Shown here piece by piece: positions 1 to 20,016 of a stretch of 20,016 nucleotides of DNA. The notes under the pieces were generated by a model. It made no database searches, was not told the origin of the DNA, and saw nothing but the letters and a program-made list of their open reading frames with translations. Numbering within the stretch: position 1 is the stretch's first letter; every line of letters starts with the position of its first letter. Location: the IMG/VR virus record IMGVR_UViG_3300050016_000289, positions 1 through 20,016 of that record, one strand, 5' to 3'. This DNA comes from a virus. The translations under genes were made by a program, and so were the position numbers.

Positions 1-71
1 CCCGCACACAGGATGACGAACAAATCGCAACCGGGAAAACTCCTCCGGCTCCGGCCAATAAAAATATATGA
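1..71 (+). CDS. C-terminal end of upstream gene (possibly portal protein), partial
   Basis: Frame 3 (first complete codon at base 3) is open from the left edge and stops with TGA at 69-71. It encodes about 22 residues, hydrophilic and Pro/Ala/Lys-rich, ending Pro-Ala-Asn-Lys-Asn-Ile. The stop overlaps the ATG at 68 of the protease gene as ATGA, the same junction used elsewhere in the window, which supports this frame over the other two. Portal genes usually precede the ClpP-type prohead protease in tailed phages, so a portal C-terminus is the likeliest identity. That rests on gene order alone, because no portal motif is visible in so short a piece. Confidence 0.45.
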   Translation, partial: RTQDDEQIATGKTPPAPANKNI

Positions 72-1270
72 AAAAACTGCCAGAATTTTTGCGTCTAATT
101 TCCGGCGACATGAACGCCGACAACACCGAGCCAGTTGACTTGCTTCTTGCGGAGCCGGTTGGTTTTGATCCTGAAACCTATACCGGCATGTCATCCCGCC
201 GGTTTGCCGAGGGGCTTGGTTCAATTCCAAAAACCAAGCCGGTGAACCTTCTTATCAACACGCTTGGCGGCCGGATTGATGAAGGCGTGGCGATGCACAA
301 CATGATTCTGGCGCGCGGGAATGTAACCACCTGCGTTATTGGATTTGCGGCGTCAATGGGAGCTGTCATCGCGCAGGCCGGAGTCAAACGCCAAATGATG
401 CCAGGCACAATGATGATTGTCCATAACCCGCAGGCCAGCGGCGACGGCGAAGCGGATGATTTTGATTCCGCCGCAAATATGCTCCGGCAGCAAAAGGCCA
501 ATCTGGTGAATTTATTTTCCAACCGGAGCGGCCAGTCCAAGAAGAAAATTTCCGACATGATGGACGAGACCACCATGATGAATCCCGACGAGGCCGAGGA
601 GCTTGGATTTTGCGACGAGGTGATAACAACCAACGCCGCGTGGAACAGCATCGAAAAAATACCCGCCGACCGCGCCCTGAAAACTTTCCGCACGCTGACC
701 AATTCGGCTGGCGGCCCAGCAGCACAACTAAAAATTGAACCAGTTAAACAAATGAAAACACTCACTGCGGCATTGGCCGCTGTCGGACTGCTTCCATCCG
801 CCGATCTGACGGATGAAGCCGCAATCGTGACCGCCTTCAACGGCGCGTCAAAAAAGTTCACGGACGCAGCCGCCGAGAACATTTCCTTGAAGGCTGAAAA
901 CGGCAGTTACAAGGCCGCGCAAAAAATCCGCGTGGAGGCGGCGGTGGCCCTGGCCGTTACCAACAAGATAATTCCCGATGCGCGCAAGCAGCATTACATT
1001 GACGCCGGCCTGCGCGACGAAACGGAATTGACCAATTCTCTGGCCGACTTGACCAACGCCAAGGGTGAAACCATCCCGGCCCGGCGCGGCGCAGCCCCTC
1101 TCCCGGTGAAGGCGGCTGGTGAAAAATCGGAGGTTGAAACCAAGATGGAAAGCCTTCGCAATGAACTTGGCGAGGCGTCCGCCTCCCGCAAGGTTGAAAT
1201 CTCCCGCGAACTGCGTGAACTGCGCGGCCATAAGGACATTCTTTCCACGGCCACTGTGGCCCAAAAATAA
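68..1270 (+). CDS. ClpP-like (S14) prohead protease with C-terminal scaffold-like region
   Basis: Residues 1 to about 200 have the ClpP fold signature. The oxyanion-loop segment INTLGGRIDEG is at 63-73, the nucleophile Ser96 lies in GFAASMGA, and His119 lies in MIVHNP. The closing helix MNPDEAEELGFCDEV is at 171-185. The position of the third triad residue (Asp in bacterial ClpP) aligns to Thr168, a change common in phage relatives. Residues 216-400 are helical and charged and resemble the scaffold parts fused to Mu-type and HK97-type proteases. The protein would cleave scaffold and capsid N-termini inside the prohead. It sits directly before the capsid gene, as expected. The start at 68 overlaps the upstream stop and follows an A-rich leader. 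The family call is strong; the scaffold role of the C-terminal half is inferred. Confidence 0.9.
   Translation: MKKLPEFLRLISGDMNADNTEPVDLLLAEPVGFDPETYTGMSSRRFAEGLGSIPKTKPVNLLINTLGGRIDEGVAMHNMILARGNVTTCVIGFAASMGAVIAQAGVKRQMMPGTMMIVHNPQASGDGEADDFDSAANMLRQQKANLVNLFSNRSGQSKKKISDMMDETTMMNPDEAEELGFCDEVITTNAAWNSIEKIPADRALKTFRTLTNSAGGPAAQLKIEPVKQMKTLTAALAAVGLLPSADLTDEAAIVTAFNGASKKFTDAAAENISLKAENGSYKAAQKIRVEAAVALAVTNKIIPDARKQHYIDAGLRDETELTNSLADLTNAKGETIPARRGAAPLPVKAAGEKSEVETKMESLRNELGEASASRKVEISRELRELRGHKDILSTATVAQK
752..1270 (+). CDS. Possible internally started scaffolding protein (in frame within the protease gene)
   Basis: Met229 of the protease ORF opens a 172-residue in-frame product covering only the helical C-terminal part. 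The bases before it (about 728-751) form an A-rich patch like the leaders of the other genes here, such as those before 1298 and 3064. Elsewhere this gene is GC-richer. Nested scaffold genes of this kind are known in lambda (Nu3 within C) and Mu (Z within I). There is no Shine-Dalgarno sequence, and the patch may simply reflect the interdomain linker, so this is a suggestion only. Confidence 0.3.
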   Translation: MKTLTAALAAVGLLPSADLTDEAAIVTAFNGASKKFTDAAAENISLKAENGSYKAAQKIRVEAAVALAVTNKIIPDARKQHYIDAGLRDETELTNSLADLTNAKGETIPARRGAAPLPVKAAGEKSEVETKMESLRNELGEASASRKVEISRELRELRGHKDILSTATVAQK

Positions 1271-1297: not shown

Positions 1298-2422
1298 ATG
1301 AAAAATAAAAAATATGGCTCGCGTGTAAGTTTTTATGCGCAGCTTAATCTGGCGGCGATGGGAATCTTGATGGCGACTGTCATTGCCGTCCAAGGTCATC
1401 TGTTCGCCGCGTTGGCGTTTGCCTCGCTGTTGGGAATGATCCTTAACCGGCCCAAGGCGCGCTGCTGCGCAGTCACATTAAGCGTTCCTGAAATCCTTAC
1501 GGACGTTCTGGACGCTTTCAAAATCGAAACTCCAATGGTATTCGGGCCGAGCGGGTTTGGGACTGACTTCAGTTCCAAGACGGCGGTTTTGAACGACACC
1601 ATCACCGCTAAAATTGCGCACGTTCCCTTGGTGGGAAATTACGACCGCGCAAACGGAGGATTCAAGGCGGCGACGCAGGATGTCACCACGTTGATCGAAG
1701 ATGTTCCGGTGACATTAAACCAGTTCAAAGTTGTAACCGTGAACATCACCTGGCTCACCCAGTTGGCGTCCAAGATTCAACTATACCAGGAGGCGGTTCG
1801 CAACTATGGTTACGCGCTCGGAAAATATGTCACCGACTACGCACTCGCGCAGATTACGCCGGCCAACTTTTCCAATCAAGTTGTTGTTCCGCTGGCCAAC
1901 GTCAACCTGGATACCTTTGACGACACCATCCGATCCCAGCTCAACCTTCAAAAGGCCGCTGGGATCAACCGTTTTTCAGTCATCTCGACCGCGATGGCCA
2001 GCAAGCTTGGCTCTGACGACCGCGTTCGCAGTTCGCTGTTCTACGGCTCGTTGAACGGTGACCGTGGCTACCGTCTTTGGAACAACATCGCCGGGTTTGG
2101 AAAAATTCAGGAATATCCCGACATGTATGCAGCCAATAACCTTATTGGCTACGGCGGTGACAAGCGCGGAATTTGCGTTGCCACCCGCCAGTTGGACTTT
2201 TCCAACGCCGCCGACAAGCTCGGTGTCCCCAAGGTGATGGAGTTCTATCCAATGCACGATGAGACATCCGGTCTGAATTTGACCGGCGCGGCCTGGCAGG
2301 AGGCCGGCACGGGCGACGTATATGTCGCGCTTGGACTTCTATTCGGCATTGGTGCCGGAAAGCAAGGCGGCGCAAACGGAACCATCACCGACAACGCCGG
2401 TGTCCGCTACGTCACCGCATAA
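1298..2422 (+). CDS. Major capsid protein with hydrophobic N-terminal extension
   Basis: This 374-residue protein follows the prohead protease, has the usual length of a major capsid protein, and looks like HK97-fold/P22-coat-type capsid proteins from about residue 60 onward. That part runs from a helix (LSVPEILTDVLDAF) through an extended-loop-like stretch and a long middle helix region to a glycine-rich C-terminus. The oddity is residues 17-49, two consecutive hydrophobic stretches split by Gln-Gly-His, followed by a basic Arg-Pro-Lys-Ala-Arg and Cys56-Cys57. Capsid proteins normally have a charged N-terminal arm or delta domain there. Internal Met codons (1358, 1370, 1436) lack the A-rich leader that precedes 1298, so 1298 is kept as start. 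The N-terminus may be removed by the upstream protease; that is inferred. Confidence 0.8.
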   Translation: MKNKKYGSRVSFYAQLNLAAMGILMATVIAVQGHLFAALAFASLLGMILNRPKARCCAVTLSVPEILTDVLDAFKIETPMVFGPSGFGTDFSSKTAVLNDTITAKIAHVPLVGNYDRANGGFKAATQDVTTLIEDVPVTLNQFKVVTVNITWLTQLASKIQLYQEAVRNYGYALGKYVTDYALAQITPANFSNQVVVPLANVNLDTFDDTIRSQLNLQKAAGINRFSVISTAMASKLGSDDRVRSSLFYGSLNGDRGYRLWNNIAGFGKIQEYPDMYAANNLIGYGGDKRGICVATRQLDFSNAADKLGVPKVMEFYPMHDETSGLNLTGAAWQEAGTGDVYVALGLLFGIGAGKQGGANGTITDNAGVRYVTA

Positions 2423-3063: not shown

Positions 3064-3678
3064 ATGAAATTGAAAAACAAAATTCTTACATTCGCGCTCG
3101 CCTTGCTTGCATTCATGCTCGCCTTGTTTTTTGCCAGCGCAGCCACGGCATCTGATTTTATTCTTTTGCCTTACACGACCCTGCCTTCCGGCGCGCCCGG
3201 ATCAACGGGCTACACAACCAACCTTTCAGCGGGTTGGACTAACAGCACAATTGGAACAAATACAACGGACACCTGGGTGGTGACTAATTCAACCATGGTT
3301 CACGCCACGAATTATGTCACTAATTCAACCGTCATGTTCGCCGACATCAATGTAAGCCATCAGGCGGACTTGACCCTCATGTCCGGTTATATCCTGAATG
3401 GTTCAACCGGAACGGGCGCGAGTCTGGACCGCACATTGACGTTTGCGCGGGTCAGCGACCTTGGATATGTTGACACCGTGGGAACCTTGACCTGGACTTA
3501 TCCCGGCAATGGAACGACCAACGCTTATGCCGCCACGAACATTACAAGCTGGGTTGGCGGATTTAAAAAAGTCCGGCTGATCAGCGACCAGTATCTGGGA
3601 ACCAACGGGCTGGTTATGACCAACCTGACGTTTGAGTCGCAGTGGAAGAATTATCTGCCGTCACCGTCTGGCCGCTAA
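3064..3678 (+). CDS. Secreted Thr/Asn-rich beta protein in the head module
   Basis: The 204-residue product begins with a clear Sec-type signal peptide: Lys-rich n-region (residues 2-6), hydrophobic core 8-26, and an Ala-Thr-Ala site predicting cleavage after residue 29. The mature part is beta-rich and dominated by Thr, Asn, Ser and Gly. It contains ten Asn-X-Ser/Thr triplets. It lies among head genes, 33 bases after the previous stop, with an A-rich leader ending AACAAT before ATG. It could be a capsid decoration or fibre protein, but a signal peptide would send it out of the cytoplasm where heads assemble. I do not recognise a family. The composition is similar to the spike proteins at 7895-12845. 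Confidence 0.75.
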   Translation: MKLKNKILTFALALLAFMLALFFASAATASDFILLPYTTLPSGAPGSTGYTTNLSAGWTNSTIGTNTTDTWVVTNSTMVHATNYVTNSTVMFADINVSHQADLTLMSGYILNGSTGTGASLDRTLTFARVSDLGYVDTVGTLTWTYPGNGTTNAYAATNITSWVGGFKKVRLISDQYLGTNGLVMTNLTFESQWKNYLPSPSGR

Positions 3679-4758: not shown

Positions 4759-5261
4759 ATCCAAAAATCCATTTTAACTTTCAAGAGCGTGCAGGTGCGT
4801 CGGCGTTGGTATGGAGCGGACGGCTTGTGAAGCATTACACCCTCCCCGCCGCGCGACTTGACCGAGCGGAAAAACTCGGCAATTTCCTTTTCCGATTCTG
4901 CGCGGAAAAACGGAACCGTTTCGACTCCGGCACTTTTGATTCTTTCAGAAAAACCACCGCCGGCCTGCGGCACGTCGAAAACGATGAATTTTACGTCAGG
5001 ATGAAAACGGCAATAAAGTGCCGCGTCTTTGGTTTTTTCAAATCCGGAAGCTCCGGCGTAAATTTCGCCGTCCAGATGACATGGAGGGAGATTCTTGGTG
5101 ACATGCTCCGGCGCATTGATTGCGTTTCCGCCGCGCGACCAGAGCGTTTCACCGTCCCAGTAGGCGCGGCAGCCATTGAGCTTTTCACACGCAATCCAGC
5201 CTTCAACATTAAATTTTCCCGGCTCAAAATAGCGCCCGTGCATCATTTCAGTTTCATTCAC
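4752..5261 (-). CDS. ATP-dependent DNA ligase, adenylation domain only
   Basis: This minus-strand gene encodes 169 residues with the nucleotidyltransferase motifs of ATP-dependent DNA ligases in order. Motif I is KLNGCR (27-32) with Lys27 as the AMP-accepting lysine, followed by AYWDG and SRGGN (42-46). Motif III is LDGEIY (63-68), IIIa is FIVFDVP (92-98), IV is GGEGVMLHKP (138-147) and V is LLKVKM (159-164). The usual Asp of motif I (KxDG) is Asn29. The protein stops six residues after motif V, so the C-terminal OB-fold used for nick sealing in minimal ligases such as the Haemophilus enzyme is missing. The furthest start is GTG at 5261; ATG codons at 5246 and 5243 are alternatives. It is the only minus-strand gene and sits inside a + strand structural operon. 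It could be a degraded or moron-type gene, or an adenylation protein with another role. Confidence 0.85.
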   Translation of the reverse strand: MNETEMMHGRYFEPGKFNVEGWIACEKLNGCRAYWDGETLWSRGGNAINAPEHVTKNLPPCHLDGEIYAGASGFEKTKDAALYCRFHPDVKFIVFDVPQAGGGFSERIKSAGVETVPFFRAESEKEIAEFFRSVKSRGGEGVMLHKPSAPYQRRRTCTLLKVKMDFWIH

Positions 5262-7217: not shown

Positions 7218-7778
7218 ATGACAACTAAATCACTATTCATCGGCGCGCACTTCTGGATTGCTCCATTGGGCGCGGCATTCACCTCGCCATCCGGCGGCAA
7301 TATCACCCAGAACGGAACCTGGCCCGACGTTGGCGAGGCCAACTGGGCAACGTGGGCACTTGGGATATGCGAGTCATTCGATATTGACCCCAAGGCCGCG
7401 ACATCGGAAATGATCCTGGCTCCGTCACCTGGCGCGGTTCAAGTCATTGATGAAATCAGCCCGTATGCCACGCCGGAAATTTCCTTTACGCTGCTCCAGG
7501 TTGATTCACTCGCGTTTCAGCTCGCGCTGAATACCCAACAGCTTTGGGCGACGGCCACCACACAGTTCAATCCGAACGGCGGCGGCGGGCCGGGTTTGCG
7601 CGGGATCATCAAGGCGCAGAAGTATGACCAGCAAAACAACCTGATTCTGAACTATCAGTCGTGGGCCTATATCAAGTTGAAATCCGCGCTCAAGGGTGCG
7701 CCCAAGACGATGACCAAACCGGAATATACGGCGACGTTGCTTTACTCGCCGAACAATACCGGAGCCATTCCCGCTTGA
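7218..7778 (+). CDS. Probable major tail tube protein
   Basis: The 186-residue protein has the length and beta-rich, Gly/Pro/Thr-rich composition of siphovirus tail tube proteins. Features include an early glycine-rich hairpin, a middle segment with conserved-looking aromatic residues (ISPYATPEISFTLLQVDSLAF), a glycine loop (NPNGGGGPG), and a C-terminal beta pair with Lys-rich turns. It has no signal peptide. It sits after the tail-terminator-like gene. The usual downstream partner, the tail assembly chaperone, is present but displaced by five kilobases of spike genes. The call is from architecture and order. Confidence 0.65.
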   Translation: MTTKSLFIGAHFWIAPLGAAFTSPSGGNITQNGTWPDVGEANWATWALGICESFDIDPKAATSEMILAPSPGAVQVIDEISPYATPEISFTLLQVDSLAFQLALNTQQLWATATTQFNPNGGGGPGLRGIIKAQKYDQQNNLILNYQSWAYIKLKSALKGAPKTMTKPEYTATLLYSPNNTGAIPA

Positions 7779-7782
7779 TGTT

Positions 7783-7950
7783 ATGAAAGAATCTCTCAAT
7801 AATCCCACCGTGGCACCCGGCTCTTTTACTGTCGAGCCGCCCGGCGTGCTTCCGATTGCGCGCATGGAAAAGATTAAAACCGAAACCAAGAAAGATGAAA
7901 ATGAAAAAACTATTCCTGCTCCTGCCGGCGATTCTATTACTGGCAACTAG
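7783..7950 (+). CDS. Small 55-residue ORF overlapping the start of the fibre gene
   Basis: An ATG four bases after the tail tube stop opens 55 codons ending in TAG at 7948-7950. The product is hydrophilic: a Pro/Val-rich first half and a Lys/Glu-rich second half (MEKIKTETKKDENEK), ending Ser-Ile-Thr-Gly-Asn. Its last 56 bases overlap the signal peptide codons of the next gene in another frame. Without it there would be an empty stretch of 116 bases in an otherwise tightly packed operon, which argues that it is translated. I recognise no family. It may mainly couple translation to the fibre gene. Confidence 0.45.
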   Translation: MKESLNNPTVAPGSFTVEPPGVLPIARMEKIKTETKKDENEKTIPAPAGDSITGN

Positions 7951-9262
7951 TTGCCTTGCGCAGACAACCAATCCGCCGGGTGTCATTCCGGTTGGCGGCG
8001 GGATTGCCAACACCAGCGCGCCGCCGGTGGTCGGCCCGGCGCTGCCTCCATTGGTTCCGCAGGTGGCGATTTACAGCGGGACAAATTCAACGCCGGAAAA
8101 TGTAATCCAGGCCCCAAGCGGCTCGCTGTATCAACAGTTCTCCAATGGAACTAATTACATCCAGACTTGGATCAAGTCCGCCGGCACCGGAAAAACCGGG
8201 TGGATCATTTCAACAAATCTTTCACTTGGTGTAACCGCCGGAGCGGTGTCAAACATAATTGTCGGATTGACCAGCGTGACGGCGGTTCAAAACACTCCGA
8301 CGATAAGCTGGGGTGTGGCTTATTCCGGTGGAACCAATACGTTGACGGCGAACGCCGGAGGCTCGGTCTTGACCAACGGTGGCCGTGGCCAATTGCAGAG
8401 CCTCTTATTGGTGGTTCCAGGAACCGGGACAAATCAAGTTACGATGGTTGGTTTTGGAGAGACGTTCTTGAACGGAAATTATGTTTGGAACGTAAATGAA
8501 TATACGAATCTTTCAACTGGGGCATACATAACCAATTATGCTCCAAGCACTCCGTATCCGTATGTTAGATTTGGAGCTGCCGACTACTATCAAGGCGTTC
8601 CATTTCCTGCTTATTGGGCCGCCCCTGGAGGCTGCATAGGAACCAATTCCGGATATAGTTATTTTTCCGGAGGAACAAATCTGCTGGAAAGCATGGTCGG
8701 AGGAACAAATACGGCCAAAGAGTTTATTGGCGGCGGCGGAGGGGTAACTGGTGTTCAGGGGCGGAATGTAATTGGTGATTTTACCAACATCATTCGCAAC
8801 GTCAATGGGAACCAGGTGCTTTACCATTCGGCAACCTCCACGCAGGTCAAGGTGGACGGGCACAACCTTCTGAGCGGCGTAGAAGGGACAGCGACACGGA
8901 TATATTGGATAGACAGCGGCGGCGGAACTTTTCCGGTGATCCAATTCGGCACCAATGAGGTGGACTTTTTGAATCCCAACCAGACTACCAACGGCAGTTT
9001 TAATTTTACGTCTGGATTTACTGGCGGCGGCCCGACCGGACTTGGTGACAGCGGTCTTGTTTCCTTGGTTAATGGAACAAACATAGTTGTTAGTTCCAAT
9101 TTTAACAGCAACAAGCCGCCGATTATGAATTATGTTTCGTTGGACGGAACGGTTTCCGGGTTATATTTAAGGCCGTCTGAATGGTTGCAGGGTGCATCTT
9201 TTACAATCCGCAGCTCGAACAGTGCTGATACTAACAAGGTTGGATGGATTATACTGCCATGA
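7895..9262 (+). CDS. Secreted fibre-like protein with Sec signal peptide
   Basis: Starting at ATG 7895 (or 7901) the protein has about 455 residues. A longer in-frame start at 7856 would put an Arg/Lys/Pro-rich tail before the signal and is less likely. Residues 1-22 form a signal peptide (Lys-Met-Lys-Lys, Leu-rich core, Cys-Leu-Ala then Gln). Cys20 might instead be a weak lipobox cysteine. A Pro-rich spacer follows. Residues about 65-100 contain GSLYQQFSNG and then SAGTGKTGW, a pattern also seen in phage tail fibre and neck-fibre proteins. The rest is Gly/Thr/Asn-rich beta sequence with repeated GGTN and GTN turns. It is probably a fibre or adhesin, first in a row of three secreted proteins. 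Sugar-binding or receptor-binding function is inferred. Confidence 0.75.
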   Translation: MKMKKLFLLLPAILLLATSCLAQTTNPPGVIPVGGGIANTSAPPVVGPALPPLVPQVAIYSGTNSTPENVIQAPSGSLYQQFSNGTNYIQTWIKSAGTGKTGWIISTNLSLGVTAGAVSNIIVGLTSVTAVQNTPTISWGVAYSGGTNTLTANAGGSVLTNGGRGQLQSLLLVVPGTGTNQVTMVGFGETFLNGNYVWNVNEYTNLSTGAYITNYAPSTPYPYVRFGAADYYQGVPFPAYWAAPGGCIGTNSGYSYFSGGTNLLESMVGGTNTAKEFIGGGGGVTGVQGRNVIGDFTNIIRNVNGNQVLYHSATSTQVKVDGHNLLSGVEGTATRIYWIDSGGGTFPVIQFGTNEVDFLNPNQTTNGSFNFTSGFTGGGPTGLGDSGLVSLVNGTNIVVSSNFNSNKPPIMNYVSLDGTVSGLYLRPSEWLQGASFTIRSSNSADTNKVGWIILP

Positions 9263-11298
9263 AAAAAATCTTTATTTTAGCCGGCTTATTGGTTGGATTT
9301 AATTGCCTTGCGCAGTTTAAGTCTGACCAGTTTGTCGGCAGCGCCTCAACGACTAATCTTGTTGGAACTGTGCCGGACTCCAAACTTTCCGGTAACATCC
9401 CATTACTAAACGGCTCACAAACTTGGACTGGGAACGGGAATGAAGTTCAAGGCAATTGGCAGTTTGATACGTCGCCGACTTTTCAATCGGACGTTACAAT
9501 TTCGCATAATTTAACTGTTTCAAGTAACCTTGTAGTTGGGGGGTTGGTTGTTACTAATGGTGCCATTAAAAAACAAATAATCAATGGAGACGGTGATGTT
9601 ACGGTAAAAACCTTGTCTGGCGATATTTCTGGTTCTACAAATTTTTATCTGGAAAATCTGAACAATACCACCGGCCACGCCGCCGGCTTTACTAACGCCG
9701 CCAACAATTTCACCGGCACCTTCACCGGCCACGCCACGAATTTTTACACTCCAGACAATGTTAAATTCTGGGGAGCGATTGGTGATGGTATTCATGCAGA
9801 CACAACTAACTTTCAAAATGCAATAAATAATGCGTCCACTGGCATCAATTTGCTAACCGATCCGCAGGGGGTTCAAATAATAATTCCGGCAGGAACTTAT
9901 TTGCTAACCAATCTCACGCTTCCAGATGGCGTTTCTTTGATTGGTTCCGGTGAAGGGGTAACACTTTTAAGAAAAACAACCACAACCGGAGACTTTATAT
10001 CTCTGGTTAGCAGCAACCGATCATTTGAAAACAACATTATCATTCGAGATTTGAAAATTTCCCAGGTCGGCACCGCTTCGTCTGGCGCGGCCATTAAAAT
10101 CACAGGTTCTTCCGTGGCCTTTGCTCATCCGCAAATTCAAAACGTGTTGATTTATGGAACTTATTATGGCTTGGATTTGTCTTACTGCATCGGTGGTTTT
10201 GTGTTTAATGTGAACATTGATTCGACCATTTCAGATGGTATAAAAACCAGTCCAACCTTTAACAATGTGAGCATGATTTCCGTTTATTCTTCGCTTTGTG
10301 GTGGAAATGGTTTTCGATTGTCTGGGGATTATGATACTTTTTTTAGTTGTTCGTCTGATAGCAGCGGCGGATCGGGCGTATATGCTGATGTTTTACGAAA
10401 CTCATCATGGCTCGGTGGCGGGACAGAAGGCTCGGCAAAAGACGGCTTTACGTTGACAAACTGTTCAAGCATAAAAATACAAAGCTTGGTCCATACCACC
10501 AACGGTGGTCGAGACGGAATACGCATTGACGGCGGCGCTGCAATTACGCTGGAAAACTGTTGGGTGGATAGTGGCGGATACACGCCCACTGGATACAATC
10601 TTGATCTGGTCAACGGCAGCGGTGCTTACCCCAGCCGCGTCCTCTTGCTCAATTGTTCATTTACCAATTCGTTCGCGTCGGGCATGATTCACGACCCAAC
10701 AGGCCAAGTAATCAGGATTGCAGACGAGGCAAATGACATCACAGCATTGCATCTGCACATCATAAATCCCGCGGCAAGCACAACCGGCGATGAGCTTGTT
10801 AATTTGGAGAATGACTCAATCGGCGGGACAATTGGAGACGGAACAATTATCAACTTCAGTAGTAAATATATCACCACAGCGCGGATACGAATGTTGACGC
10901 AAGGAACGTCACCGCTTGATTTCGCTATGGCATTTTTTGGCTATGAGGGAGGTTTGAATGAAGGCTTTAGATTATTAGGAAATGGCAAATTGCTGATTGG
11001 AACGACAACCGATGATGGCGTCCATTTGGTGCAGGTCAGCGGCACCCTATCCGCCAGCGGCTTCACCAGCTATGCCACGAACGCCACACTCGTTTCAACC
11101 TCGACAACAATCAGCAACAGCCAGCCGATCAACATGACCGTGTATCTGACTGCCGCCACGGGATTGAGCATGACAAGCGGTTCTGGTAGTCTTGTTTTCA
11201 GCGGACAGACGATAGCTGCATTCACTCCGTTCACATTGCAGCCAAAAGCTCAACTGGTCGGGACGGCAATAACGTGTGTCGGCACAAACGCTTGGTAA
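9259..11298 (+). CDS. Right-handed beta-helix tailspike, Pectate_lyase_3 type, with signal peptide
   Basis: The ATG at 9259 overlaps the fibre stop (ATGA), giving 679 residues. A longer start at 9244 lies within the fibre gene. Residues 1-18 are a short signal peptide ending Cys-Leu-Ala before Gln. Residues about 140-160 carry the Phe-Thr-Gly-x-Phe-Thr-Gly-His-Ala-Thr-Asn-Phe pattern. The entry to the beta-helix is at about 170-191, FWGAIGDGIHADTTNFQNAI, the hallmark of Pectate_lyase_3 tailspikes. The helix runs to about 530. Near 577 comes LLIGTTTDDG then VQVSGT, a pattern typical of spike C-terminal parts, followed by a beta-rich end. Such spikes bind and often cut capsule or exopolysaccharide. 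Catalytic residues cannot be assigned by eye. Much of the gene looks more AT-rich than its neighbours. Confidence 0.85.
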   Translation: MKKIFILAGLLVGFNCLAQFKSDQFVGSASTTNLVGTVPDSKLSGNIPLLNGSQTWTGNGNEVQGNWQFDTSPTFQSDVTISHNLTVSSNLVVGGLVVTNGAIKKQIINGDGDVTVKTLSGDISGSTNFYLENLNNTTGHAAGFTNAANNFTGTFTGHATNFYTPDNVKFWGAIGDGIHADTTNFQNAINNASTGINLLTDPQGVQIIIPAGTYLLTNLTLPDGVSLIGSGEGVTLLRKTTTTGDFISLVSSNRSFENNIIIRDLKISQVGTASSGAAIKITGSSVAFAHPQIQNVLIYGTYYGLDLSYCIGGFVFNVNIDSTISDGIKTSPTFNNVSMISVYSSLCGGNGFRLSGDYDTFFSCSSDSSGGSGVYADVLRNSSWLGGGTEGSAKDGFTLTNCSSIKIQSLVHTTNGGRDGIRIDGGAAITLENCWVDSGGYTPTGYNLDLVNGSGAYPSRVLLLNCSFTNSFASGMIHDPTGQVIRIADEANDITALHLHIINPAASTTGDELVNLENDSIGGTIGDGTIINFSSKYITTARIRMLTQGTSPLDFAMAFFGYEGGLNEGFRLLGNGKLLIGTTTDDGVHLVQVSGTLSASGFTSYATNATLVSTSTTISNSQPINMTVYLTAATGLSMTSGSGSLVFSGQTIAAFTPFTLQPKAQLVGTAITCVGTNAW

Positions 11299-11328
11299 AT
11301 GACCACTCCCAAACTCATCCTAACCTGA
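11299..11328 (+). promoter_or_regulatory. Nine-codon relay ORF between the two spike genes
   Basis: ATG at 11299 directly follows the TAA of the first spike gene. It opens nine codons (Met-Thr-Thr-Pro-Lys-Leu-Ile-Leu-Thr) and stops with TGA at 11326-11328, whose last base is the first base of the ATG of the second spike gene (TGATG). It could hand ribosomes from one gene to the next. Alternatively it is a by-product of close packing; there is no strong Shine-Dalgarno sequence before 11328. Confidence 0.35.
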
Positions 11329-12845
11329 TGAGAAATTTTGCACGGCTCATCCTTGCAGCGTGGCTGGCGTCCATTATTCCGGTGGGCGCAATGACTTACA
11401 ACAGCAGTGGCGTTTATACTAATGTTGAGGCGTTATGCCTTGCAGCATCACCGGGAGACACTGTGACTATTCCGGCGGGAACATTCCAGTGGACGAATGC
11501 TGTTGATCTGACTGGTATCACCTTGCAGGGAGCTGGGACAAATCTGACATCCATTGATGATCAGACGCCCTACAACGGAAACGAATTTCCGGTTTTCATG
11601 CACACGGTTTCCGGCCATTTGACTCGCGTCACTGGCATCCGATTCTTTAGCTCAACCCACACTTCATCGCAGAATTTCTATGGTGAGATAGCGGTAAGGA
11701 ACGGATACAGCTACCGTGTGGACCACTGTTTCTTTGACCATCCGCCAAACGTCTGCGTTGGTGTGTCAGATTACAGTTATGGTGTAATAGACCATTGCAC
11801 ATTCCTTACAACCAACCAGCCTGACACAATAAAAATAACAGGCGCGCCGTATGGTGATTTGATCTGGTCTTTTGACCCGGCTTATGGTTCTACGAACACC
11901 TCCTACATGGAATCTTGCTATGCAAAATCAGACAGTTTCTTCACGGCGATTGATTCCGCCGGCGGTGGCAGCTATGTCTGCCGGTCGAATGTCCTGATTG
12001 ATTTTTTCTGCTCGACTCACGGGCTTGAGACGGGCGGGCGGTTGCGCGGATCTCGCTATGTAGAGGTTTATGGCAATTATGCCGACCTGCTTAATTGTCC
12101 GCAGCAACTTTTTTTTGATGCGCGGGGAGGCACAGCGCTGGTCTTTAACAACATCCTGACTAATTGCGGTATTGCCAAGATTCAGACATTCAGAACAACG
12201 GACAATGACCCAGCATTTGCTCCGTTCTATGGCGCAACAGGCGCAAGCGGCTGGGATTCAAACAGCGCATCCTTGCTTACTTTCACGGCGTCAAGCAGTT
12301 CAACCTCCAACCTGATTGTCAGCGGGGCAGGCTGGACGATCAACCAATGGGTCGGTGATGAAGTTTTCAACACCAATTCCATCGGCGTGTGGAACGGGGT
12401 GACAAATAACGGAAACTGCGGGACAATATCTTCAAATAGTTCGGACACGATGTATTTTTATGCCAGCCGCGCGCCGGGTTATCAGATTGGATTCACTGCC
12501 GGGGATGTATTGCACGTCCACGACATTGTTCCGATGGACGGCATCGGAGTTGGAACTGGGGATTTGCTTGTCGGAGACAACCCTTCGCCGACCTACCTCC
12601 ATCAGGTGCGAGACCCTCAATACTACTGGTCAAACAACGTCAACGGAGTAATGGTTGAAATCAAACAAGGCGATTCTTACGGCTGGGCGCGTTTGGGCAG
12701 AGAATTTATTGCCGGCATCAAGCCGGGTTACACGCCGCTGGTCTATCCGCATCCGCTGGACGTGCCGGATGCTGGCGGCGGAATAATAACTAACACCGGA
12801 ACATTGTTTAATTTGGGCAGAATAAGCAGCATCATAAAACAATAA
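11328..12845 (+). CDS. Secreted right-handed beta-helix protein (second spike or polysaccharide-active protein)
   Basis: The start at 11328 gives 505 residues beginning with a signal peptide: Met-Arg-Asn-Phe-Ala-Arg, hydrophobic core 7-19, and likely cleavage near Ala21. An in-frame ATG at 11274 lies inside the previous gene. The mature part opens like a parallel beta-helix (VEALCLAASPGDTVTIPAG at about 33-51, then GITLQGAGTN) and continues with short beta turns rich in Asn, Gly, His and Asp, such as RVDHCFFDHP and VIDHCTF. Near the C-terminus is YTPLVYPHPL, a pattern common at the end of secreted beta-helix proteins of environmental bacteria. This suggests polysaccharide binding or cleavage. 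It looks more like a cell-secreted protein than a standard tailspike. Many Cys residues are present. Confidence 0.75.
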   Translation: MRNFARLILAAWLASIIPVGAMTYNSSGVYTNVEALCLAASPGDTVTIPAGTFQWTNAVDLTGITLQGAGTNLTSIDDQTPYNGNEFPVFMHTVSGHLTRVTGIRFFSSTHTSSQNFYGEIAVRNGYSYRVDHCFFDHPPNVCVGVSDYSYGVIDHCTFLTTNQPDTIKITGAPYGDLIWSFDPAYGSTNTSYMESCYAKSDSFFTAIDSAGGGSYVCRSNVLIDFFCSTHGLETGGRLRGSRYVEVYGNYADLLNCPQQLFFDARGGTALVFNNILTNCGIAKIQTFRTTDNDPAFAPFYGATGASGWDSNSASLLTFTASSSSTSNLIVSGAGWTINQWVGDEVFNTNSIGVWNGVTNNGNCGTISSNSSDTMYFYASRAPGYQIGFTAGDVLHVHDIVPMDGIGVGTGDLLVGDNPSPTYLHQVRDPQYYWSNNVNGVMVEIKQGDSYGWARLGREFIAGIKPGYTPLVYPHPLDVPDAGGGIITNTGTLFNLGRISSIIKQ

Positions 12846-12859
12846 AGAAAAGGCATAAC

Positions 12860-13231
12860 ATGAAAACATTAAAGGGCGGTCGGGAACATTCGGTTGTCAA
12901 AGAAGACGGGTCAACTGAAACGGTAATGGTAAGCCAGTTCAAGCTCGGCCAATATGAAAAGGCACTGGTCGTCATAGATGACGAGTTTGCACTTGCGGCG
13001 CTGGCCTGCGGCAAGGACAAGGCTTGGATTCAATCTTTGGAACCTGGCAGCTATGAGATGCTGCGCACCATTGTTGAGGAGGTCAACGCGGCGGGTTTTT
13101 TCGTCTATGCGCAGCGTCAACAGGACAAGGCGACCAAGCGGATCAACTCGGTCAAGCCGGAGGTTCTACAGGTGCTGGGCGCGAGAGTCTCGGTGCCTAT
13201 TGCGCCAGGATTGCTGCCACGTGCGGCCTGA
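12860..13231 (+). CDS. Tail assembly chaperone (lambda gpG analogue)
   Basis: This 123-residue protein lies directly before the frameshifted extension and the tape measure gene, the standard position of the gpG-type chaperone. Residues 1-40 are beta-like and charged; the rest is helical (DDEFALAALACGKDKAW, then SYEMLRTIVEEVN). The zero-frame C-terminus after the slippery site (residues 82-123) is basic and Val/Pro-rich. The start has an A-rich leader with AAAAGG about eight bases upstream. The protein would bind the tape measure and recruit tail tube subunits. The identification rests on position, size and the frameshift arrangement. Confidence 0.75.
   Translation: MKTLKGGREHSVVKEDGSTETVMVSQFKLGQYEKALVVIDDEFALAALACGKDKAWIQSLEPGSYEMLRTIVEEVNAAGFFVYAQRQQDKATKRINSVKPEVLQVLGARVSVPIAPGLLPRAA
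13096..13102 (+). promoter_or_regulatory. Candidate -1 programmed ribosomal frameshift site (T TTT TTC)
   Basis: The heptamer T TTT TTC is in the correct phase in the chaperone gene (codons Phe80 TTT and Phe81 TTC), matching the X XXY YYZ rule with X and Y both T. It lies 18 bases after the -1 frame opens (previous -1 stop TGA at 13075-13077). It is the only such heptamer I find between there and the zero-frame stop. I see no obvious strong downstream stem or pseudoknot. Confidence 0.7.
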
Positions 13232-13400: not shown

Positions 13401-15548
13401 ATGGGCCAGGAAATATCCATCACATTAAGTTTGAAGTCGGCGGCGGCTTTGCAGCAGTTGAACGCGTTCATTGCGCAAACCGACACCCAACTAAAGGACT
13501 TGCAGGTCAAGGCCGGAGCCGCGAGCGCCGGCATGGCCGGTGGAATGAAGGCCGCAGGTGACGAGACGATGCACCTGGCCGGCAAGGTGTATTATCTTCG
13601 CGGATCAATAGACGCGATCCGGTTTGCGGCGGCGGACGGCGGAGCGCGTGCAGGATTTTACGCGATTGATGAAGCCGTCCGGGGATTGGTTGCCAGCGGG
13701 CTTGGACTTGGAACCATCGGTCTGATTCTTGCCGGAATGACCGCCGCCGTTGGGGTCGCTTATCTTTCATGGAGGGAGTTTGGCGATGGATTGGCGCAGG
13801 CCCAGGAAAAAGCCGACAAGCTGGCCGAGACATTGGACAAGCTTCCAGCCTTGTTAAAGGCATTGCAGGAAACCGGCCAGGGCGATCTGGCGCAATATCT
13901 GCCTGGTGGAGGCAAGCAGCTTTATCATGGCCCGAACGGACGCGGTGTAACCGACCAACCGACCGCGATGGAGGATCAACTCATTGGCGGCGGCGGCTTT
14001 GTTCCGGCGCGCGTTGTTCAAGTCCGTGTCAACCTTAAGCCCCTTACTCCCGCCGAGGCCGAGGCGTGGGCGATCCATGCCAGCGGCACGATGGATTCTA
14101 AAGGAAAGGTAAAGGCACCAAGCGCGGCCCTTGGTGAGATGCAGGTGTTGACCAAGGAATATCAAACTGATTCATTCACCGGTGAGCAAAAATTGATTGC
14201 CGCCGAAAATGACAAGTTTGAAAAGGCCAGGGCACACCTGGAGCAGTTGCATCAAATCGCCAAGAGCGCGGGTGACGACAACGCTGATTCAACTTACAGC
14301 GTCGCGTTTGGCGCGTTGATGGCGGAGCATCAGGCGATCATAGACGACATAACAACCAAGGCGGCGGATAAGTCCGCCAAGGCCGAGGCGGAACGCGAGA
14401 AAAAGGTGGACGATGATTTGACCGCTTTTAACAACAAGTTATTCGCCGCCCAGCAAAAACTTGCCGCGCAGAAAAAGACCGATGACGATGCGCAGCTTGC
14501 GCGGCAAAAATCGGCGACGGAAGAATTGATGCGCCAGCAGGAAATTCAGCAGGCCACCGCCCGCGCGAAGGCCGAGGCCGCGCTGAAGGAGGTTCAAGAT
14601 AATCCATTTTTAACGCAGTCGCAAAAGGCGCAGCAAAGCCAAAGTCCAATTCAAGACTTGATGGCGCAAAACAATGCGTCCATAAAAAGCTATGGCGGGA
14701 TTGCCGCCAATCCGGCCAACGACGAGTGGGCAAGGATTCAGGCGTTGTCCAAGATAAACGAGCTTACCGTCCAGCAGGTTGACCTTCAATACAAACTGCA
14801 AGCGGCCCAGGGTGAAAACTCCTTCACCTACAATTTGAAGCAGGCGTTGGTCTCGCTGCAAAACATGAACAGCCTGGCAAGGGAGGTTGCGCAGACCTTT
14901 GAAGGCGTGATGAACACTGCCATCAAGTCGGTTGGTTCCAATCTAACCCAGGTTATCATGGGAACTAAGACCTGGCAAAAGGCCCTGTTGGACATTGAGA
15001 GCACCATCCTGACCGATATAGTGAATGCAATAATTGAAATGGGCCTGCGCTGGGTGACGACACAAATAATGATGGCCGTAACCGGCGAGTCGTTGTCGCT
15101 GGCCCAAACTGCCGCGCTTATTCCAATCGCCGCAGCGCAAGCCGCGATCTGGGCTACCCCGGCCACGCTTGCAACGATAGCCACCGCCGGGGTGGCCGCC
15201 GCCGATGCGCCGGGATTGATGGCCATTGCGGAGTCCGCCGCTGTTCTATCCGCCGCGCCACGAGCGTCCGGCGGGCCGGTCACTGCCGGGATGCCTTACA
15301 TAGTCGGCGAGAAAAGGCCGGAGCTTTTTATTCCATCCCAAAACGGACATATCATTCCAAGCGTTCCGTCGCTGGCCGGGATTTCATCCAAGTCCGGTTC
15401 ACAAGGCGGCGGTTCCACGATGAACTTTGACGTTCATAACTGGAACGACTCCGCCGCGATGACCGAGCATATCCGCCGTAACCCGGATGTCCATCATATC
15501 ATCCTGGACAAGGTGAAACGAAACAGCCATGTAATAAGCCCCGCATGA
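13401..15548 (+). CDS. Tail tape measure protein
   Basis: The 715-residue protein follows the chaperone pair and is the longest helical protein in the window. Residues 1-40 form a coiled-coil-like start. Residues 95-124 are strongly hydrophobic (a membrane-inserting segment of the kind known in tape measures). Residues 315-395 are an Ala/Lys/Glu/Gln-rich coiled coil. Residues 500-620 are Ala/Ile/Thr-rich and hydrophobic. Near 623-655 is GGPVTAGMPYIVGEKRPELF followed by IPSQNGHIIP, a well-known tape measure C-terminal pattern. At about 0.15 nm per residue a tail of roughly 100 nm is expected. The protein sets tail length and enters the cell envelope during DNA delivery. I see no lytic domain. 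The stop overlaps the next ATG. Confidence 0.95.
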   Translation: MGQEISITLSLKSAAALQQLNAFIAQTDTQLKDLQVKAGAASAGMAGGMKAAGDETMHLAGKVYYLRGSIDAIRFAAADGGARAGFYAIDEAVRGLVASGLGLGTIGLILAGMTAAVGVAYLSWREFGDGLAQAQEKADKLAETLDKLPALLKALQETGQGDLAQYLPGGGKQLYHGPNGRGVTDQPTAMEDQLIGGGGFVPARVVQVRVNLKPLTPAEAEAWAIHASGTMDSKGKVKAPSAALGEMQVLTKEYQTDSFTGEQKLIAAENDKFEKARAHLEQLHQIAKSAGDDNADSTYSVAFGALMAEHQAIIDDITTKAADKSAKAEAEREKKVDDDLTAFNNKLFAAQQKLAAQKKTDDDAQLARQKSATEELMRQQEIQQATARAKAEAALKEVQDNPFLTQSQKAQQSQSPIQDLMAQNNASIKSYGGIAANPANDEWARIQALSKINELTVQQVDLQYKLQAAQGENSFTYNLKQALVSLQNMNSLAREVAQTFEGVMNTAIKSVGSNLTQVIMGTKTWQKALLDIESTILTDIVNAIIEMGLRWVTTQIMMAVTGESLSLAQTAALIPIAAAQAAIWATPATLATIATAGVAAADAPGLMAIAESAAVLSAAPRASGGPVTAGMPYIVGEKRPELFIPSQNGHIIPSVPSLAGISSKSGSQGGGSTMNFDVHNWNDSAAMTEHIRRNPDVHHIILDKVKRNSHVISPA

Positions 15549-17656
15549 AATATCTCGCACTCAATGCCGAGTATGTATATCTCATAAACGAGATGCCGAA
15601 TTGGGCGCGCGGTTTCCAGACCGATTTTAATTCCTTCACCGATGCGCAATCATCCCTTACCAGGATGGAAACGCGGCGTCCCTATTCATCCACTTTGCGC
15701 ACCACCATTAAGTGCGCCTGTATCAGCAGCGGAGCCGGCTTGAGGATGTTGCAAGTGCAGCTTCGCGGATTGAAGACCCAGCCGGTTCTTATGCCTTTTT
15801 GGCCGGCAATGTCTTTTTGGTCGGCCCGCGCAGCCGCATCAATTACCGGCGGCTTGATGGTAGTTTTCAAATCTGATTGGTCTCAATATACAATCTACCC
15901 ATTTGGCGCAGACCCGGTGTGGCCGTTGGCCGGCGACTTATGCTGTCCGCTGCTTTACGGATTCTTGAAAAGCAACGATCCTCAATTCTTAAACGTGGAC
16001 ACCGCGCTTTGGAAGATAGAATTTACCGAGTCGTCCAAGTCCGATTATGCACTTTCATTTTCATCGTCGGCTTTTCCAGCAGGCCCACAGCCAACTGGAT
16101 ATTCAACCGCGCCAACGCTGCTTCCATTCCGCCAGGATCATTCCGACTCCAAAGAGTCATTCCAAATCAATGTCGCGCGCAAGCAGGAGGGGTTTGTCCG
16201 CGAACTGGCCGGAACCATCTATCCACAGGACGTGGCGCGTGCGCAAACGGCCAGATATGTAGTAACCGGAGATGGGATAGCCTCCTTGCTCGACTGGTAT
16301 GGCACCCTGGCGGGCCAAGGCGCGTCTTTTTGGGCGATTAGCTCCCTAGCGGCGGGCTACCTCGCGTGGCCATCCCTGTCGTCAGCCACGGCCCTTGCGT
16401 GGGGCGATACGAACGTAACCGCTGGAGACTATCTGGCAACCTTTGCGCCGGACGGGACAATTTTAACGGCCAAGGTAGCCAGCGTGGTTGGAACCACGGT
16501 CAACCTGGTCGCTCCGTTTGGTGCCGCGTTTGTCGCCGGGCATCCTTTTTATCAGCTTAACCTTGTCCGGTTGGTTACACAAACAATTTCATTGACATGG
16601 CTGGCTCCAAGGCTGGCCACGCTCAATTTGAGTTACTCCGAAGTCCGGCCTGAAACCATAATCCCCGGAAGCGAAACCCTTGGAACAACACTTGGACTTC
16701 TACCACAACGCATCGTCCTGTTTGATTTTTGGCGCGACTTTGGAAACGGGACAATTTCTCATTGGTATTTCACCAGCTTTGAAACCGACCAGGTTTATTC
16801 CGGCCATGCTTACATCCATGGCCCGTTCGCGCTTGGTGACATATCCAACAGTGTCAACCTGGAGAACGATTCGTGCGACATTGAATCATCCTTGACCAAG
16901 CCGGATGGAACGCTTTACACGGACAGTCCGTTGGTTCTTGATGTAATCCTTGGTGCGGAGGCTCCGCTGAACGTCGTGGTTTATTTTTCCGATGTCGGTG
17001 GAACGGCCAAGGTTTTCTCCGGCGAAGTATCTGCCGTTTCGCGCGATGGAAATACGGTCAAGGCCACCTGCAAGCTGGCCAATTCAATTTTTGAAACCGG
17101 CCTGCCGATGCTTTTGCGCGGCGTGGTTTGCAGCCACCTGAAAGGATCGCCCGGCGACGGCTCGCATCTTATCAGCCAGGGATGCTCCGGCCCGGATGCG
17201 GTCATGAAAAAGACCTATTGGAAGTTCACCGGCGAAGCGGCCAACCCGATCACCAGCGCATTCCCGGCCACGCTCAAGTTGAATACAATAACCAAGGTTG
17301 GCGCGGGTGCAATCGCGGCCACCATATTTTCCAACTTCTTTTCCTATGGTTTCGTTGAGTGGGGTGCGGGCGCGGATGTTCAGCGCCGGCTGATCATCGG
17401 TTCAACAGTCATTTCCGGCGGAGCCATTACATTGACTTTGCATAAATACTTCACCGCGCTGCCGGTTGCCGGCGACTTGGTCACGTTCTATCCCGGATGC
17501 GATGGCCAGTATTCAACCTGCAAGGCTTATGACTCCGCGGCAAATCCAACCGGCAAGTTTGGGAACGGAAACAACTTTGGAGCCGATCCGTTCACCCCGA
17601 CCGGAAACCCGACCATTACATTGCAGCAAACCCTGCCCGTCCAAGGATCAAAATGA
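15545..17656 (+). CDS. Fused distal-tail / tail hub protein (DUF2163-Phage_BR0599-like C-terminus)
   Basis: The 703-residue protein starts at an ATGA overlap with the tape measure. Residues 1 to about 380 look like a distal-tail-type region (an early NWARGFQTDFNSF segment, then beta-rich sequence with Trp and Pro). From about 385 a second part begins (LLPQRIVLFDFW, then HWYFTSFETDQVYSGHAYI) that resembles DUF2163-type hub proteins of gene-transfer-agent-like tails. The C-terminus has the Phage_BR0599 hallmark: Gly-Cys-Asp at about 650, then STC, and later FGNGNNFGADPF. It carries many Cys residues, some of which could bind metal or form disulfides. In related systems distal-tail and hub proteins are often separate; here one chain holds both. 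It would sit at the tail tip. Confidence 0.8.
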   Translation: MKYLALNAEYVYLINEMPNWARGFQTDFNSFTDAQSSLTRMETRRPYSSTLRTTIKCACISSGAGLRMLQVQLRGLKTQPVLMPFWPAMSFWSARAAASITGGLMVVFKSDWSQYTIYPFGADPVWPLAGDLCCPLLYGFLKSNDPQFLNVDTALWKIEFTESSKSDYALSFSSSAFPAGPQPTGYSTAPTLLPFRQDHSDSKESFQINVARKQEGFVRELAGTIYPQDVARAQTARYVVTGDGIASLLDWYGTLAGQGASFWAISSLAAGYLAWPSLSSATALAWGDTNVTAGDYLATFAPDGTILTAKVASVVGTTVNLVAPFGAAFVAGHPFYQLNLVRLVTQTISLTWLAPRLATLNLSYSEVRPETIIPGSETLGTTLGLLPQRIVLFDFWRDFGNGTISHWYFTSFETDQVYSGHAYIHGPFALGDISNSVNLENDSCDIESSLTKPDGTLYTDSPLVLDVILGAEAPLNVVVYFSDVGGTAKVFSGEVSAVSRDGNTVKATCKLANSIFETGLPMLLRGVVCSHLKGSPGDGSHLISQGCSGPDAVMKKTYWKFTGEAANPITSAFPATLKLNTITKVGAGAIAATIFSNFFSYGFVEWGAGADVQRRLIIGSTVISGGAITLTLHKYFTALPVAGDLVTFYPGCDGQYSTCKAYDSAANPTGKFGNGNNFGADPFTPTGNPTITLQQTLPVQGSK

Positions 17657-18668: not shown

Positions 18669-20016
18669 ATGGGTGGAAAATCATCAGGAGAATTGAACGA
18701 CTATTATGGCCACGCCGCCGGTTGCGTCTGCCAGGGCCAGCTTGATTTTATCGTCGGGCTGTTGATAAACAACAACCTGTCGTGGCCGAACGCAGCACTA
18801 TGGAGCTTCTTATACAACCCAAACCAACTTACGCTTTACACCGATGGAAACATTTACCGGACTTTGGTTCAGACCAACATAGACCCGCCAGCAAGTCCGT
18901 GGACTCTTTACGCCGCGCCGTGGTCGGCTGGGACTTACACCCTTGGAACCAACAAGCTTCACCTGGGAAATATTTGGACGGTCGGGGTTGCCTCGACTTC
19001 ATTAACGCCGCCGGCGGTCGCGCCGAGATGGGCTTCAGGCAAACGGTCCAAGGTTCAATCAGATTCGGTTGATGCAAGCGGATGGAAGTTTATTGCCGTC
19101 GCTCCAGTCACCTGGACTTTGGAGCATTCGTTCTTGTCCGGTGCAATCGTGGCCTATGAAGGACGGCTCTATGTAACCAGCGCGAATACAAGCGCAGAGC
19201 CGCCATCCTCGCCATGGTCTTTGTGGAAGCAGGACTTGTCCGGCTCCAATCCGTTCAAGTTCACGGTTGACCCGAATAACGGCCAAGGTTACGGCGGTGA
19301 TTGCTATCTTTACACCGGGCGGGACAATCAAACTCTGGACACGGTTTATGAACAGGTGCTTTCATCCTTGGGCCATCCGGCCTATCGCAACAAATCCATA
19401 TTGGTTTTGAAGAATTTCAAATTTGGAACAGAACAACAGAACGCGCCGGACTGTATTATTGTCGGCGGACGCAGCCCGGTTCAAACTTTGATCACCGGCG
19501 CAAGCACGGACTTGGACGCCGACTGGCAGGCCAATCCTTGGTGCATCCTGGCCGAGTTATTGACCCACCCGGCCATTGGGATGGGATTGCCCGACTCGTT
19601 TTTTGATGCAACGTCATGGCAAGCCGAGGCCGACCGTTGCGCGGCCAACCCGGAACTGTATTACATATCACCAATCTATTCATCGTTGAAGAAAGTCCGT
19701 GAAGTTGTTACCGACTTGATGGGCTACCCGGACGCCTTTGTTTTTTGGACCACGCTGGCAACGCTCGCCGCCGGGCATTGGCCTCACGGTGAGGCTGATC
19801 CGGCCTTTGACGCAACCAATACGGTTGACCACGACGCCCTGACCGAGGGGCTGAAATGGGACTCTGACGTTTGGGGTGATACGTTCAGCACGGTGCAGCT
19901 TTCGTTCCAAGACATCCAATCCGGTTTCAAATCGCGTCCGGTGTTCTCAAATAATTTATTCAACCAATCGGTTGTCAAGCGGGCCGGTTATCTCACCATT
20001 GACCGCCCGCATATTG
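18669..20016 (+). CDS. Large tail hub / host-specificity protein (Phage-tail_3 type), 3' end outside the window
   Basis: An ATG at 18669 opens a frame with no stop to the right edge (449 codons). The N-terminus has a cysteine pair (CVCQGQLDFIVGLLI) as in gene-transfer-agent-type central hub proteins. Residues 52-190 hold three related short segments that look like carbohydrate-binding repeats. The later part has the hub pattern: LGHPAYRNKSILVLKNFKFG, then APDCIIVGG, then NPWCILAELLTHPAIGMGLP with a Trp-Gln-Ala-Glu-Ala-Asp helix. These proteins form the tip baseplate, bind receptors and pass DNA. The gene follows one base after the preceding stop. The identity is well supported; the N-terminal repeats are an addition. 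Confidence 0.85.
   Translation, partial: MGGKSSGELNDYYGHAAGCVCQGQLDFIVGLLINNNLSWPNAALWSFLYNPNQLTLYTDGNIYRTLVQTNIDPPASPWTLYAAPWSAGTYTLGTNKLHLGNIWTVGVASTSLTPPAVAPRWASGKRSKVQSDSVDASGWKFIAVAPVTWTLEHSFLSGAIVAYEGRLYVTSANTSAEPPSSPWSLWKQDLSGSNPFKFTVDPNNGQGYGGDCYLYTGRDNQTLDTVYEQVLSSLGHPAYRNKSILVLKNFKFGTEQQNAPDCIIVGGRSPVQTLITGASTDLDADWQANPWCILAELLTHPAIGMGLPDSFFDATSWQAEADRCAANPELYYISPIYSSLKKVREVVTDLMGYPDAFVFWTTLATLAAGHWPHGEADPAFDATNTVDHDALTEGLKWDSDVWGDTFSTVQLSFQDIQSGFKSRPVFSNNLFNQSVVKRAGYLTIDRPHI

Follow-up and report, generated by a model that had tools for sequence, protein, structure and literature searches.

The accepted picture for tailed phages is that virion proteins are synthesised and put together in the cytoplasm. 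Phage genes encoding signal peptides are already known, including those for Lom and Bor of lambda, the spanins and several genes of Porphyromonas gingivalis phages. Lom is an outer membrane protein and Bor a lipoprotein, and both are surface proteins of the lysogen. The P. gingivalis phages (proposed Nixviridae) have signal-peptide genes, five of which obey the Q rule, as well as capsids with signal peptides; the Q-rule genes have no known function there, the passage on them does not describe them as tail fibres, and the host belongs to the Bacteroidetes (PMC10367356). The cultured Verrucomicrobia siphovirus P8625 (NC_029047) shows distant likeness in its head protease (31%), its capsid (23%) and its tape measure (22-27%) to the DNA analysed here, IMGVR_UViG_3300050016_000289. 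This stretch of 20,016 bases (the window) is a complete IMG/VR record and a fragment of a siphovirus-type genome. Between its tail-tube-like gene and its tail assembly chaperone gene lies a slot of three consecutive genes, P1, P2 and P3, whose products begin with well-formed Sec signal peptides. Proteins of such slots, in the window and its relatives, resemble phage tailspikes and fibres (beta-helix, K1-lyase_C, collagen-like) in predicted domain types, tail-operon location and high variability, and differ from them in the Sec signal peptide, the lack of a shared virion-binding N-terminal domain and the placement between tube and chaperone. They would resemble Lom and Bor as Sec-exported products of a tailed phage and, unlike these, are fibre-like. 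P8625 is unlike the window in having no signal peptides and in carrying its annotated tail fibres after the tape measure gene.

Signal peptides were called with a purpose-written, rule-based scanner, not SignalP, that looks for a positive n-region, an uncharged h-region and small residues at -3 and -1. OmpA, MalE, PhoA, LamB and Bla all scored above 9.3, LacI was rejected, LacY fell below threshold, and the false-positive rate on shuffled N-termini was 1.1%. P1, P2 and P3 scored 11.5, 10.7 and 10.4, each with positive charge in the n-region, then a long hydrophobic run free of charged residues, and small residues at the cleavage site. These scores bear out the first-pass annotation, which had proposed signal peptides for all three proteins from the sequence and had read Cys-Leu-Ala before Gln in two of them; the predicted signal peptides of P1 and P2 both end CLA^Q. 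On reading, none fits the lipobox [LVI][ASTVI][GAS]C, as P1 has ATSC (A at -3, weakly lipobox-like), P2 has GFNC and P3 has no counterpart. P1 and P2 lack an ATG in the 120 codons downstream of the signal peptide and contain a few GTG or TTG codons, from codon 38 onward, while the ATG at codon 22 of P3 coincides exactly with the predicted cleavage site. The signal peptides are judged real because they are conserved in relatives. Tight coupling had also been proposed for the whole cassette. The ATGA overlap of P1 and P2 at 9259 is genuine, but P2 ends at a TAA codon (11296-11298), and the TGATG at 11326-11330 closes a nine-codon open reading frame (ORF; 11299-11328) rather than P2, which leaves P2 and P3 without direct coupling.

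Relatives were gathered by capsid searches, which returned 18 viral contigs and three contigs from metagenome-assembled genomes (MAGs), and by a hub-protein search, which added three more records; their genes were called and passed through the same scanner. Where the tail region of a related record was readable, the pattern recurs, across about ten non-redundant records. Among genes encoding at least 150 amino acids, a signal peptide was found in 12 of 19 within the slot, its borders set by hand, versus 2 of 59 in the remainder of those records (Fisher test, 9e-8). A check set in advance was whether relatives start these genes downstream of the hydrophobic segment; the opposite was seen, with fibre-type genes of relatives carrying signal peptides. 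In the close clade, G007 has one such gene between tube and chaperone (444 amino acids), and G008 has no fewer than four there (196, 287, 527 and 471 amino acids, the 287-residue product scoring just under threshold and the 471-residue one using a start inside the called ORF); neither genome has a further fibre gene after the tail-tip gene within the available sequence. In G004, a signal-peptide protein of 790 amino acids is encoded directly 3' of the tube gene. G002 has three consecutive signal-peptide genes after the head genes (1409, 362 and 1176 amino acids), with tube and chaperone not recognised. Two near-identical Acidobacteria MAGs (contigs L006 and L007 of G005 and G006) encode a beta-helix protein of about 750-770 amino acids with a signal peptide before the chaperone, and the virus G009 encodes one of that size in the same stretch, before the tape measure; a spike in L080 that is 78% identical to that of G009 retains its signal peptide. 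When 396 genomes from the phylum to which the Acidobacteria MAGs belong were searched for the capsid, only the two known MAGs came up. In L077 and L078 the gap between tube and chaperone contains no signal-peptide gene, and each has two in the interval from tape measure to hub; in either record the scanner called one of them, and the other was recognised by eye. The constant feature is therefore the presence of signal peptides on fibre-type genes of the tail operon, not the exact gap.

The proteins concerned are of several kinds, and most slot proteins are mutually unrelated across records. A signal-peptide protein of L033 is a fibre with collagen repeats (PHROG 5073, E=4e-22; Pfam Collagen, E=1e-14; scores inflated by the repeats), one of L077 matches a PHROG tail fiber family (E=1e-9), and beta-helix proteins occur in L006 and L035 and LamG/Ig proteins in G002. 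Threonine and asparagine together make up 13-32% of the signal-peptide proteins, versus about 11% in other genes of three records. First slot genes share a weak proline-rich motif at their mature N-termini, a match not corrected for multiple testing. Cysteine content is not raised, and a need for disulfides as the reason for export was dropped on that ground.

Predicted signal peptides of this kind are confined to part of the phage group, given that none was found on fibres of distant relatives and control phages. In lambda, crAss001 (first 50 kb), B40-8 and 11b, the scanner matched no fibre or spike, its matches being limited to Lom, Rz, Bor and other small membrane, lysis or lipoprotein-type genes. 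The structural genes of P8625 gave no signal peptide with the scanner, and its authors' own SignalP run gave none. In the distant relatives L040 and L046, tail genes have no signal peptide and tube adjoins chaperone, in line with the earlier remark that the cassette breaks the usual order. On the capsid tree the signal-peptide label is clustered, a test weakened by near-copies and long branches.

At the predicted cleavage sites, the scanner ignores the +1 residue, except that Pro is forbidden there. Gln occupies +1 in 10 of 24 signal-peptide proteins, versus about one expected, although the 24 include homologs and are not all independent; the count misses the Gln of P1, where the scanner picked another cut. 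In Bacteroidetes, Gln is preferred just after the cut made by signal peptidase I, which is known as the Q rule (PMC5837995). The excess is strong yet not a majority, while the Q rule expects Gln in most substrates. This preference suggests, indirectly, an adaptation to a host that cuts the slot proteins. Separately, in a gene sample from the Acidobacteria gp4 MAG G005 (contigs C1-C20, L052-L071), Gln stood at +1 in 5 of 20 proteins versus a background of 3.2%; small as the sample is, a Q-rule-like preference may extend beyond Bacteroidetes.

As to what follows the signal peptides, the first-pass description of beta-rich spikes agrees with the K1-lyase_C domain of P1 and with weak beta-helix matches in P2 and P3 (Table 1). 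P2 matches a pre-neck appendage family (PHROG 4775, residues 166-270, E=8e-5) and the start region of an NCBIfam rhamnogalacturonidase (residues 168-236, E=5e-7, far below the family cut-off), and P3 matches the TIGR03805 beta-helix (residues 38-83, E=4e-5, below cut-off); in both proteins these matches cover the first turns of the families. P1-P3 had no blastp match to proteins of the relatives and no relatives among viral contigs; a single phage match, to P2, was weak, and a PDB sequence search returned no reliable match. An AlphaFold2 model of P2, built without relatives, had a predicted local distance difference test (pLDDT) score of 31 and was unusable. The guanine-cytosine (GC) content of P2 is 0.46 versus 0.53 for the window, and P2 may be a recent acquisition. 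The suggestion that host genes had recently been captured did not gain support: among P1-P3 only P2 deviates clearly in GC, and homologs were sought in phage and viral collections only.

Table 1. Features of the window and, in one row, members of the 204-amino-acid family in other records
Feature	Position	Strand	Evidence or remark
ClpP-type head maturation protease	68..1270	+	PHROG 94 E=2e-41; Pfam CLP_protease
Major capsid protein	1298..2422	+	PHROG 283 E=1e-4; Pfam Phage_capsid_4 E=2e-4, below model cut-off
Hydrophobic hairpin extension of major capsid protein, residues 1-57	1298-1468	+	Before CAVTLSVPE
204-amino-acid protein behind capsid gene	3064..3678	+	Second signal-peptide family, six members
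Other members of the 204-amino-acid family	L002 5204-5800; L024 9237-9854; L026 13798-14424; L031 12484-13131; L033 3712-4278		
Tail-tube-like gene, left border of slot	7218..7778	+	Homologs in same position in L031, L024, L033, L077, L078
55-codon ORF, charged, proline-rich	7783..7950	+	Other frame, overlaps P1 start; similar-sized ORFs at same place in L031, L033
P1, 455 amino acids, signal peptide and spike/fibre-type protein	7895..9262	+	ORF, scanner, Pfam K1-lyase_C
P1 signal peptide (predicted)	7895..7960	+	MKMKKLFLLLPAILLLATSCLA^Q; scanner's own cut 5 residues earlier
P1 C-terminal K1-lyase_C (capsule lyase C-terminal domain)	9050..9256	+	PF24146, residues 386-454, E=4e-7, above cut-off
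P2, 679 amino acids, signal peptide and probable right-handed beta-helix spike	9259..11298	+	Weak family matches
P2 signal peptide (predicted)	9259..9312	+	MKKIFILAGLLVGFNCLA^Q
P3, 505 amino acids, signal peptide then almost directly probable beta-helix	11328..12845	+	TIGR03805 match
P3 signal peptide (predicted)	11328..11390	+	MRNFARLILAAWLASIIPVGA^M
Tail assembly chaperone, right border of slot	12860..13231	+	PHROG 1442 E=4e-5; homologs in L031, L033, L006
Tape measure protein	13401..15548	+	PHROG 1107 E=5e-22
Distal tail / baseplate hub-type protein	15545..17656	+	Pfam PF09356, PHROG 778
Tail tip (J-like) protein	18669..20015	+	PHROG 1101 E=7e-11; gene cut by contig end

Our leading reading, held tentatively, is that P1-P3 are accessory tail-fibre or enzyme-spike proteins that are exported by Sec and attach to particles at lysis. 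They would be made late, alongside the other tail genes, moved by Sec across the inner membrane and cut by the host signal peptidase I. The mature proteins may then be stored in the periplasm, which is proposed because no C-terminal surface anchor was seen on inspection by eye. Lysis would bring them to finished particles, where they would attach as side fibres or spikes, the least sure step, and some would remain free, binding or cleaving polysaccharide. The main support for attachment to the virion comes from the several signal-peptide proteins predicted to be of tail-fibre type, and the slot genes sit in the tail operon. In phage P22 the addition of the spike is the last step of assembly and occurs spontaneously, so late addition is not implausible. 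Several points weigh against this reading. Chief among them, no common N-terminal virion-binding domain was found among the slot proteins, and in P3 about 16 residues separate the cleavage site from the beta-helix match, which makes a place for virion attachment hard to find. Moreover, we are aware of no tailed phage whose exported fibres have been shown to join virions.

In a second explanation, the proteins are exported and never enter the particle, acting free as late secreted depolymerases or adhesins that, for example, clear surface polysaccharide and so let progeny spread, or block receptors. The signal peptides are well-formed and recurrent, an attachment domain is shared by none of the proteins, P3 is essentially a signal peptide and a beta-helix, and both beta-helix and K1-lyase_C point to polysaccharide. 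The collagen-repeat and tail-fibre-type proteins among those with signal peptides, however, better suit a fibre anchored to the particle, the genes lie within the tail operon, and the C-termini bear no surface anchor that could be seen by eye. Purely free action seems the less likely of the two, attachment to the virion being rated above it.

Two further possibilities involve membrane signals elsewhere in the structural genes. Capsids of the close clade have an N-terminal extension of 47-68 residues with two hydrophobic segments and basic flanks, present in all six close-clade proteins and missing from eight distant relatives, P8625 included; the extension was noted in the window, L002, L024, L026, L031, L033 and L008. 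The capsid signal peptides of P. gingivalis phages were interpreted as being cut off by the prohead protease (PMC10367356), and in the window, too, a head protease gene lies next to the capsid gene. Behind the capsid gene lies the 204-amino-acid protein, which belongs to a fast-evolving family of proteins of about 200 residues. The other members are 19-28% identical to it, and all six have an N-terminal hydrophobic signal. Its AlphaFold2 model is all-beta (pLDDT 71), and a fold search with this model returned no confident match. L037 (8057) and L038 (14882) also have a signal-peptide gene of similar size a short way behind that for the capsid. One conceivable arrangement, which we consider improbable, is a two-sided, membrane-coupled assembly, in which a cleavable hairpin would tether the capsid protein to the cytoplasmic membrane on its inner face; a decoration-type protein would be exported to the opposite side together with the tail fibres, and these would reach the particle only once the membrane is breached. 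Somewhat more doubtful still is that the hydrophobic N-termini of the slot proteins are uncleaved anchors that fasten the fibres during assembly, whether to the tail, to one another or to the membrane, without export. The hydrophobic hairpin borne by capsids of the same clade is indeed unlikely to serve capsid export, but the form of the cleavage sites and the Gln at +1 in the slot proteins are best explained by cutting by signal peptidase, and their segments are signal-peptide-like in form while differing in sequence between genomes.

There is little to recommend the view that P1-P3 are lysogenic-conversion genes, or morons of the Lom/Bor type, that alter the surface of the lysogen. In lambda, Lom and Bor do carry signal peptides, and the lom gene is found in the tail region. 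Promoter-like sites in the P1-P3 region are not in excess, however (8 versus 7.3 expected from shuffles), the genes share strand and tight spacing with the late genes, and their domains are of fibre type, with no match to an outer-membrane barrel family in Pfam and PHROG scans. Chance or a gene-start artefact is very unlikely: the scanner is rule-based and not SignalP, but the signal recurs in about ten non-redundant records against the shuffled control of 1.1%, and P1 and P2 have no downstream ATG start.

On the plus strand of the window, the head half comprises the ClpP-type head protease, the major capsid protein, a 200-amino-acid protein, the 204-amino-acid signal-peptide protein and head-tail genes; the tail half runs from the tail-tube-like gene through P1, P2, P3, the chaperone and the tape measure to the hub-type protein and the start of the J-like tip. 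Of the border labels given at first pass, those of chaperone and tape measure are backed by PHROG families (1442 and 1107), whereas the tail-tube-like gene matches no Pfam or PHROG model and owes its label to position and homology. The motif PPGVLPI of the 55-codon ORF resembles PPGVIPV at the mature start of P1 (p ~0.002, uncorrected for many comparisons). We dropped the notion of the signal peptide as a by-product of this overlapping ORF, since signal peptides occur without this overlap in P2, P3 and most of the relatives' genes. Elsewhere, an ATP-dependent DNA ligase-like gene lies on the minus strand within the head-tail operon (4752-5261; PHROG 114, E=2e-20), and the viral contig L078 encodes a histidine kinase / response regulator protein (8455-9993) between tape measure and hub.

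The first-pass annotation had presented a phage-borne, export-dependent surface system as new. The signal-peptide genes described in P. gingivalis phages, capsid and Q-rule genes among them (PMC10367356), narrow that claim, but in the open-licence literature searched there was no direct report of exported tail fibres, or of a clade with signal peptides on fibre or spike genes as a class. Consistent Sec signals on such genes would mean either that particles are completed outside the cytoplasm or that secreted, polysaccharide-acting proteins made by phages have been filed as tail fibres. Either outcome would alter the annotation of these genes, as well as the way in which fibres from uncultured phages are expressed and tested.

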